Source of the DNA: Nitrososphaeraceae archaeon
Lineage (GTDB): Archaea > Thermoproteota > Nitrososphaeria > Nitrososphaerales > Nitrososphaeraceae
Assembly: GCA_019246625.1 (NCBI GenBank)
Contig: JAFAQB010000091.1
Span: 1 to 54,446, forward strand
Direction: 5' to 3'
Length of the DNA stretch: 54,446 bases
Part shown: positions 22,167 to 24,603 of the stretch, in pieces
Numbering within the stretch: the first letter of the stretch is position 1
Layout: each line of letters opens with the position of its first letter
Translations under genes and position numbers: made by a program
The notes under the pieces: model-generated
Seen by the model: the letters and a program-made list of their open reading frames with translations, nothing else
Database searches by the model: none
Told to the model about the DNA's origin: nothing

Positions 22167-23531
22167 GTGATGAGCATCATCAAGGATGAATCTTGCGACA
22201 TTCTGCATATTGGATTTGATGATACCGATTCAACGCTATCCAGATGTACTACTCAATTGGCATTTAAAATTACAGACTATTTGTTAAAGATAAATGCAAA
22301 GTTTATTGATTACCCACTTCTGATTAGATTGAATCCTAATGTTCCATGGAAGACACGCGGCAATGGCGCTGTTTGTTTAAGGGTGAGAGCAAAGAGCCAT
22401 GATAAAATAATTGGATATGTAAAACAAAGTATAGAGGAGGGATCAAATATAGGTTCAGGTGCAAATCCTGCTGTTGTCTTTTTTAAAGGAGAAGAGATTC
22501 CAGATATTATAAAAGAATTCAGTCGAGTTGCAATGTTTGACATTCTGAGCAGGAAACAAGCAGAAAAGATTGCAAAAGAACACTTAATGGAATACTTAGC
22601 CTTTGGAGATGGCCGAGGTTTAGTAGGCTCATTAGCTGCAATTGGTTGTTTGCTACACAAGGATCATACCTTTGAAGCCATAGCATACAGAAAACCAGAA
22701 TATTGTGGTACAGATAGAGTAGTGGATATATTAAAGGTAATCGAATATAGTAAAAATACATTCCCAAACACTTTCAACAATTACGATCAAAATTACAGGC
22801 GCGTATTAATTACACCTCATGGCCCAGATCCGGTTTTCTGTGGTATAAGGGGAGAAAACCCTGAAGTGGTAGTTTCATCACTGGAACGATTAGAGTTAGA
22901 GGAGAAATTGGATGGTTATATGGTTTTTCGCTCAAACCAAGGGACGAATATGCATTTACAAAACGAATTGAAATTATCTCAGATCAAAGCTTATGCTGCT
23001 GGCTATATCCATTGTAAAATCAGTACTAAACCATATATTATGCAAGGAGGCCACGTGTTGTTTGAGATAGAGGATTTTAATGGAGTTACTTGTCCAGCTG
23101 TAGTATACGAGCCAACTGGTTTAACAACTATCGCTTCAAAGTTAGTAAGAGGCGACATCATCGAAATTGGTTGTGGGGTCAGAAAAGCAACATCAAAGCA
23201 TCCAAAAATTTTGAATATAGAGTATCTTTACATCCTAGAACTTGTACAAATATTCGATACGCTTAATCCTTTATGCAAAGCTTGTGGAAAGCGAATGAAA
23301 TCAGAAGGGAGAAATAAAGGATTCCAGTGTGATAGATGCAAATATAAAGACAGGATTAATAAGAAAATTTGTGTACTGCAAAACAGAAATATAAAGACAG
23401 GATTATATCTTCCGACCCCAAAATCACACAGACATTTAACCAAACCTATTCATAGATATGGCATGGAAAAGTCACCCGTAGGTCTATATCCAGAATCATT
23501 GTTTGCCAGATGGTTTTATTCTTCCAAATAG
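22167..23531 (+). CDS. tiaS: tRNA(Ile2) 2-agmatinylcytidine synthetase TiaS
   Basis: 454 residues; uses ATP and agmatine to turn C34 of the CAU-anticodon tRNA-Ile into agmatidine so that it reads AUA. The N-terminal part has IGFDDTDSTLSRCTTQLA; the middle has the kinase-like FGDGRGLVGSLAAIGC and ITPHGPDPVFCGIRGE; an OB fold follows (VLFEIEDFNGVTCPAVVYEP) and the C-terminal zinc ribbon has CKAC and CDRC (about 370-395). Start is ATG 22167 or the next codon, also ATG. Stand-alone gene. Its substrate tRNA is not in the window. Confidence 0.95.
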   Translation: MMSIIKDESCDILHIGFDDTDSTLSRCTTQLAFKITDYLLKINAKFIDYPLLIRLNPNVPWKTRGNGAVCLRVRAKSHDKIIGYVKQSIEEGSNIGSGANPAVVFFKGEEIPDIIKEFSRVAMFDILSRKQAEKIAKEHLMEYLAFGDGRGLVGSLAAIGCLLHKDHTFEAIAYRKPEYCGTDRVVDILKVIEYSKNTFPNTFNNYDQNYRRVLITPHGPDPVFCGIRGENPEVVVSSLERLELEEKLDGYMVFRSNQGTNMHLQNELKLSQIKAYAAGYIHCKISTKPYIMQGGHVLFEIEDFNGVTCPAVVYEPTGLTTIASKLVRGDIIEIGCGVRKATSKHPKILNIEYLYILELVQIFDTLNPLCKACGKRMKSEGRNKGFQCDRCKYKDRINKKICVLQNRNIKTGLYLPTPKSHRHLTKPIHRYGMEKSPVGLYPESLFARWFYSSK

Positions 23532-24291
23532 TTATTATTGTATAAATTGACTACAGGAATTGCTTACCTAGAGGCAATCCAATATAAGTAGTCATTTGTT
23601 GTGATGTAAGAGTTACAATTTTTGATGCTTAGTAATTATACCTAGATATTATAAGAAGTATTTCTTCTATCTATCTTTTATGTCCCAATATAATGAAGCT
23701 TAACAATTTCGCTTATAGTTATAACGTCATTGACCTGCAATCTAAAACTAACTGAGTATGATCACGTTATTACTTTCAAGTCAGCTCCGTTTGTTTATCC
23801 CTTGTTAGTTCTTGCAATTCTGCATACCAGTCTCTTCCCTTGAGCATAGGATTTCCATGAGCCGTTCTATCAAAGCTAATATGTCTTAACAGTTTAGGCA
23901 TATATTTTTCCTTGTAAAATTTGGTGCAATCTACTTCAATCCCTCGTATGCTTCTCTTCTTAAGCAACTATCGATGGCAAAATTGCAGCTATATCTGCAT
24001 ATGACATTCAAGAAATGCGTTTTCATATTGTTTACAAACTTTATTCGTGGTGAGGACATAATAATTTATTGTTATTGTATTTTGTTCGACTATTTCTTCA
24101 GTTATTGATGATATGAGATGTAAGACAACACTTGAAGCGTTGCTGCTGCCATGATCTCTAACTAATGTGGTGATGTAAATGTTGATGTTAACCCTAACTA
24201 ATATTTATAAACAAACATTGCCATTATCTGTGGTCATTGTATATGTTTTTAAGCATATGTGATCGGTCAGATGGATCACAATAAAAGCCAA
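23532..24291. other. Gene-poor stretch before the initiator tRNA
   Basis: 760 bp. A minus-strand TTG-started frame at 23776-23967 (63 codons, containing HGNPMLKGRDWYAELQEL) has plausible composition but no recognised family; it may be a small gene or a relic. No other feature seen. Confidence 0.35.
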
Positions 24292-24312
24292 TAGCGGGGG
24301 GTTGATTTGAAC

Positions 24313-24340
24313 ATACGGCCACGTGTTTGTCTTAAGTGGA
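24313..24340 (-). other. 28-nt tRNA intron in the T-stem (52/53)
   Basis: A strict bulge-helix-bulge is visible: central 4-bp helix GCGG with CCGT, 3-nt bulges TTT and ATG, and inner helix CCAC with GTGG. Cutting after the second base of each bulge removes exactly these 28 nt and restores the T-stem pair between GGTTG and CAACC. Confidence 0.88.
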
Positions 24341-24375
24341 AACCGCTCTGCGGGTTATGAGCCCGCCGGGATTAC

Positions 24376-24391
24376 CTAACCTCTATGAGAT
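24376..24391 (-). other. 16-nt tRNA intron in the D-loop (18/19)
   Basis: Bulge-helix-bulge: central helix AGCC with GGTT (one G-T pair), bulges AGA and AGG, and an inner 3-bp stem TCT with AGA around loop CAT. Cutting after the second bulge base on each side leaves a normal archaeal initiator D-loop. Sixteen nucleotides is close to the shortest archaeal introns. Confidence 0.82.
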
Positions 24392-24603
24392 CTGGCTTCC
24401 CCACCCCGCTGACAGCATTTCTACACAGGGAAATATATCTCTGTCTCCGAATAAGTAAAAAAACGCTGCAGCAAAAATAGAATAAGAGGCTGAAGAAGTG
24501 TGACTAAATAGTTATTTTATTATTTACCAGGTGTTCTTTAAAAGCATTATTAGTTAATCAATTTTAAAATATTGTTTCCAACGCTGAATCAATTAAACAA
24601 TGT

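Follow-up and report, generated by a model that had tools for sequence, protein, structure and literature searches.

The minus strand between positions 24410 and 24292 of contig JAFAQB010000091.1, from a Nitrososphaeraceae archaeon (GCA_019246625.1), carries an initiator tRNA-Met(CAU) gene of 119 nt unspliced and 75 nt spliced. The whole stretch of DNA analyzed, referred to here as the window, is 54,446 nucleotides long. Read 5' to 3', the gene consists of five blocks: AGCGGGGTGGGGAAGCCAG / ATCTCATAGAGGTTAG / GTAATCCCGGCGGGCTCATAACCCGCAGAGCGGTT / TCCACTTAAGACAAACACGTGGCCGTAT / GTTCAAATCAACCCCCCGCTA. These are exon 1 (24392-24410, tRNA positions 1-18), a 16-nt intron in the D-loop at site 18/19 (intron 1, 24376-24391), exon 2 (24341-24375, tRNA positions 19-52) with an intact anticodon arm, a 28-nt intron in the T-stem at site 52/53 (intron 2, 24313-24340), and exon 3 (24292-24312, tRNA positions 53-73), after which CCA is not encoded. 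The exons are read directly from the gene, while the introns are defined by their bulge-helix-bulge (BHB) motifs and by comparison across the family, and for intron 2 also by the centroid fold.

Removal of blocks two and four (ATCTCATAGAGGTTAG and TCCACTTAAGACAAACACGTGGCCGTAT) leaves 75 nt that form a regular cloverleaf with a CAU anticodon, an A1-U72 pair, the T-stem GGTTG/CAACC, and three G-C pairs at 29-31/39-41, adjoining the anticodon loop. The A1-U72 pair and the three G-C pairs beside a CAU anticodon loop are hallmarks of archaeal initiator tRNA, and the spliced sequence possesses all of them. With its three exons in order inside 119 nt, the gene is neither permuted nor split. An initial annotation of this DNA had described two non-canonical introns in an initiator tRNA-Met, 16 nt at 18/19 and 28 nt at 52/53 around an intact anticodon arm, with excision restoring a regular 75-nt tRNA that has A1-U72 and the three G-C pairs. 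It gave no strand, which is minus; the described structure is borne out by direct reading, standard numbering, and the cloverleaf.

Standard gene finders respond to this gene only after excision. ARAGORN reports no tRNA across the whole window and none in the unspliced gene, and it returns tRNA-Met(cat) for the spliced sequence. The Rfam tRNA model scores the unspliced gene at 13.2 bits against a cut-off of 29 bits. Other Rfam matches at the locus were rejected as weak and chance-like. Both tools thus overlook the initiator tRNA of an archaeon of the soil ammonia-oxidiser type. The unspliced transcript shows both intron hairpins in its centroid fold, and its minimum-energy fold contains a rival helix near intron 2.

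BHB Motifs and Predicted Cut Sites

The motif at intron 1 is AGCC-AG^A-UCU..AGA-GGUU-AG^G, and that at intron 2 is GCGG-UU^U-CCAC..GUGG-CCGU-AU^G. The central helices AGCC/GGTT and GCGG/CCGT, each with two 3-nt bulges, are present just as the initial annotation had claimed. Both sites in this gene have four of four central pairs and three or four inner pairs. When the inserts were shuffled in place, with two bases of slack permitted, helices equal to those observed arose in 0.16% of trials for intron 1 and in 0.12% for intron 2. Exon identity alone leaves the cut ambiguous by 2 nt at intron 1 and by 1 nt at intron 2. The BHB geometry removes this sliding ambiguity and so fixes the cut sites; from this anatomy, we infer that each 3-nt bulge is cleaved between its second and third bases.

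Copy Number and Conservation in Nitrososphaeraceae

The source genome comprises 3.96 Mb in 461 contigs and is 96.8% complete. No initiator tRNA-Met gene other than the one at 24410-24292 was found there. For a second, intron-free initiator gene, which the initial annotation had named as evidence that would speak against its reading, the source genome was searched with the anticodon arm, allowing at most two mismatches, and with T-arm and acceptor together, allowing at most three; none was found. Because the genome is divided into 461 contigs, such a gene could be missing from the assembly.

The family set contains 70 genomes and includes Nitrososphaera, Candidatus Nitrosocosmicus, and Candidatus Nitrosopolaris. 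The initiator anticodon-arm sequence was found in 62 of the 70. Almost every family genome has the pattern just once, the lone extra match (L099) not being a tRNA, and each of the single-contig relatives G001, G011, G012, G020, and G031 has one initiator match. In the remaining eight genomes a search with the gene's 5' end also gave no match; six of these are 65-87% complete and two are 92-93% complete (G045, 93%; G024, 92%). In G045 and G024 the initiator gene may have fallen into a gap of the assembly, or it may be so altered that the search patterns miss it.

Every one of the 62 family genes read, including the gene described here, has a T-arm intron, located at 52/53 in 55 genes and at 59/60 in 7. 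One of the 62 (L112) stops at a contig edge within the T-arm, and its 52/53 intron was judged from the visible start only. The 18/19 intron is present in 51 of the 62, and the 11 genes without it all belong to one Nitrososphaera-like genus (g12). The comparison with relatives that the initial annotation had proposed therefore finds the introns recurring throughout the family. Both introns are a standard feature of Nitrososphaeraceae and not an oddity.

This distribution bears on the possibility that the gene is a disrupted pseudogene with an intact copy elsewhere. Such a reading would agree with the failure of ARAGORN to call the unspliced gene, with its Rfam score below the cut-off, and with a fragmented assembly that is about 97% complete. 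The search for a second copy within the mismatch limits given above was nevertheless negative throughout the source genome, and a decaying copy would not show near-invariant exons and interruptions at the same sites in 62 genomes. A pseudogene is accordingly very improbable.

The family exons are near-invariant, while the introns measure 14-37 nt and have divergent loops. In the inner helix, which adjoins the bulges, pairing reaches 92% for the 52/53 intron, against a permuted mean of 74% (44 distinct sequences), and 92% for the 18/19 intron, against a permuted mean of 68% (30 distinct sequences). None of 2000 permutations matched the observed pairing at either site, a result that also holds with one sequence per genus, although some effect of shared ancestry remains in these tests. 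The pair types seen in the inner helices are C-G, T-A, A-T, and G-C. Sliding of the partner strand lowers the pairing at every offset, although the short D-loop helix still pairs at 82% at one offset. In some relatives (e.g., L086 and L100) the central D-loop helix has only two of four pairs. At both introns, the helices appear to be maintained by compensatory change between species.

The inserts might also be retained, enlarging the loops of the mature tRNA, as their removal is deduced here from sequence. The 28-nt insert would, however, break the T-stem, and the 16-nt insert would part G18 from G19. Moreover, the length and sequence of the inserts vary freely among species while the BHB geometry is constant. 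Retention is consequently a reading to which we assign hardly any probability. The introns are very probably real and excised by the normal archaeal tRNA-splicing enzyme.

Three Intron Sites across the Order

Across the order, every one of the eight possible patterns of occupancy of sites 18/19, 52/53, and 59/60 occurs, from no intron through each single site and each pair to all three. This tally was made by exon matching, since automatic parsing of BHB motifs puts some introns of family f10 in the wrong place (e.g., L035 and L037-L043). The Nitrosopumilaceae genes read have either the 18/19 intron or none. In the family containing Candidatus Gagatemarchaeum, several members have two or three introns; the three-intron genes, with all of 18/19, 52/53, and 59/60, lie at L037 345-482 and L042 1454-1591. 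Members of family f13 have no intron, the 52/53 intron, or the 52/53 and 59/60 introns together. From established tRNA structure, we take the three sites to flank or split the residues that form the contact between the D-loop and the T-loop. A contig labeled Woeseiaceae bacterium (L139, JAJFKT010000034.1) bears a Nitrosopumilus-type initiator tRNA together with TiaS, and the public bin from which it comes therefore appears to be contaminated.

The occurrence of a T-arm intron, at either of two sites, in every family gene read raises the question of selection. The introns may be kept because they shield the 3' attachment site of the gene from integrating elements, or because they block the D-loop/T-loop contact until splicing and so act as a quality control or maturation checkpoint on initiation. 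Randau and Soell put forward protection against integration (cited in PMC3293823), and elements in thaumarchaeal tRNA genes integrate almost always at the 3' ends (PMC6563490). On the other hand, 10 of 39 mapped thaumarchaeal tRNA-gene integrations hit intron-containing genes (PMC6563490), the initiator gene is intron-free in many Nitrosopumilaceae, and the pattern is explained equally well if introns are retained neutrally and are gained or lost from time to time. Selection of this kind, which would be an addition to the best explanation and not a replacement for it, seems unlikely on balance.

Probable Splicing Machinery and Promoter, and Gene Neighborhood

A gene for the catalytic (alpha-type) subunit of tRNA-splicing endonuclease, encoding 183 aa, lies in the window on the minus strand at 1181-1732, with 23 kb between it and the initiator tRNA gene. 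It is identified by PF01974 and PF02778 and by its structural relatives, of which the best solved are the tRNA-splicing endonuclease chains 2cv8, 3p1z_B, and 3ajv_B. It is the sole copy found in the genome and is the likely processing enzyme for the initiator introns. Thaumarchaeota have alpha2-beta2 endonucleases, a type that is linked with introns at non-canonical positions (PMC4090602; PMC3218864). A search of the genome for the beta subunit with PF01974, PF02778, and the alpha protein as queries matched only the alpha gene. The beta subunit may be too diverged or may fall in an assembly gap, and it is the weakest link of the splicing account. The ligase RtcB is present in the genome (PF01139, E 1.2e-172). 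Upstream of the tRNA gene, a TATA-box-like promoter element, ATATAT, is located on the minus strand at 24433-24438, at -28 to -23 from A1; the upstream regions of the 62 family genes share a conserved ATATA at about the same position.

BHB inserts outside the canonical site 37/38 also interrupt further tRNA genes of this genome. The tRNA-Asn(GUU) gene (L023 1501-1600) has an insert of 26 nt (GAGC-AA^..GCTC-AA^C), the tRNA-Phe(GAA) gene (L024 1501-1596) one of 22 nt (CACT-CG^..AGTG-AA^G), and the tRNA-Lys(CUU) gene (L017 1501-1592) one of 18 nt (AACC-AG^..GGTT-AC^A). For tRNA-Lys more than one cut scores, and the 18-nt choice restores the anticodon stem. After excision of the inserts, ARAGORN recognizes tRNAs with matching anticodons in all three cases. 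At least three other tRNA genes thus have non-canonical introns, and the organism therefore uses such introns generally.

TiaS, the agmatidine synthetase for tRNA-Ile2(CAU), is encoded on the plus strand at 22167-23531. Its gene is convergent with the initiator gene and lies a short way downstream of it, and so two CAU-tRNA functions are kept side by side. TiaS is convergent in 142 of 142 loci of the order that show both genes; in 137 of these it is clearly downstream, with a median gap of 57 bases. Here the gap (23532-24291) is 760 bases and contains short ORFs only; it is possibly an insertion or a gene remnant.

Relation to Known Systems

The initial annotation had placed non-canonical introns mainly in Thermoproteales and regarded two of them in a thaumarchaeal initiator tRNA as striking. 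The first statement is not supported: in Thaumarchaeota, non-canonical introns already number 107 according to tRNAscan-SE 2.0, which also provides a BHB model specific to that phylum (PMC8450103). Regarding the second, the presence of two BHB introns in the sole initiator gene found stands, while their rarity does not, given these 107 introns (PMC8450103), their family-wide occurrence, and the introns in other tRNAs. The feature is ordinary for the lineage; the structural reading is correct, and the statement of rarity is unsupported.

The thaumarchaeal introns in the passages covered of PMC8450103 resemble the present ones in phylum, motif, and location outside 37/38, and the initiator tRNA of Nitrososphaeraceae with its three sites is not discussed in them. 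A tRNA of Thermoproteales can have as many as three BHB introns, with positions in the D- and T-arms among them, as here (Pyrobaculum; Sugahara et al., reviewed in PMC4090602); that lineage is a different one, and the introns described here are in an initiator tRNA. Thermofilum pendens has a permuted initiator tRNA and Nanoarchaeum equitans a split one (PMC3218864); both need BHB processing, as is deduced here, and the T. pendens junction at 59/60 (PMC3218864) coincides with the third site found in relatives. Unlike these, the present gene is neither rearranged nor divided, and its introns lie in cis. The Caldiarchaeum tRNA-Thr(GGU) gene, with introns at 24/25 and 45/46, likewise has two non-canonical introns of variable content in one gene (PMC3293823); the tRNA and the positions differ, and the link to mobile-element integration belongs to Caldiarchaeum (PMC3293823).

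A literature search of open-licence papers found none that describes the initiator introns of Nitrososphaeraceae, nor any prior description of the three fixed sites in eight combinations across the order. Databases of the GtRNAdb type very probably do list the family's initiator introns.

Proposed Processing and Implications

The evidence is best explained by a sole working initiator gene with two BHB introns that is spliced to a normal 75-nt tRNA, with introns that are inherited within the family and sites that turn over independently. We place the probability of this explanation at about 95%. The conserved upstream motif suggests that the gene would be transcribed from its own TATA promoter. 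Judging from the anatomy of the gene and the enzymes encoded in the genome, the host splicing endonuclease would cleave each 3-nt bulge between its second and third bases, RtcB would ligate the exons, and CCA would be added after exon joining. The mature product would be an initiator tRNA of regular form and 75 nt. On this explanation, inheritance accounts for the introns within Nitrososphaeraceae, and across the order they turn over independently at 18/19, 52/53, and 59/60.

As a single find, the gene is not unusual for its lineage. The part worth following is the comparative pattern, with its three sites, eight states, and a T-arm intron in every family gene read. Three sites in eight states provide a clean comparative system for the gain, loss, and retention of tRNA introns. 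To make the tRNA with which all of their proteins begin, Nitrososphaeraceae appear to be dependent on splicing.
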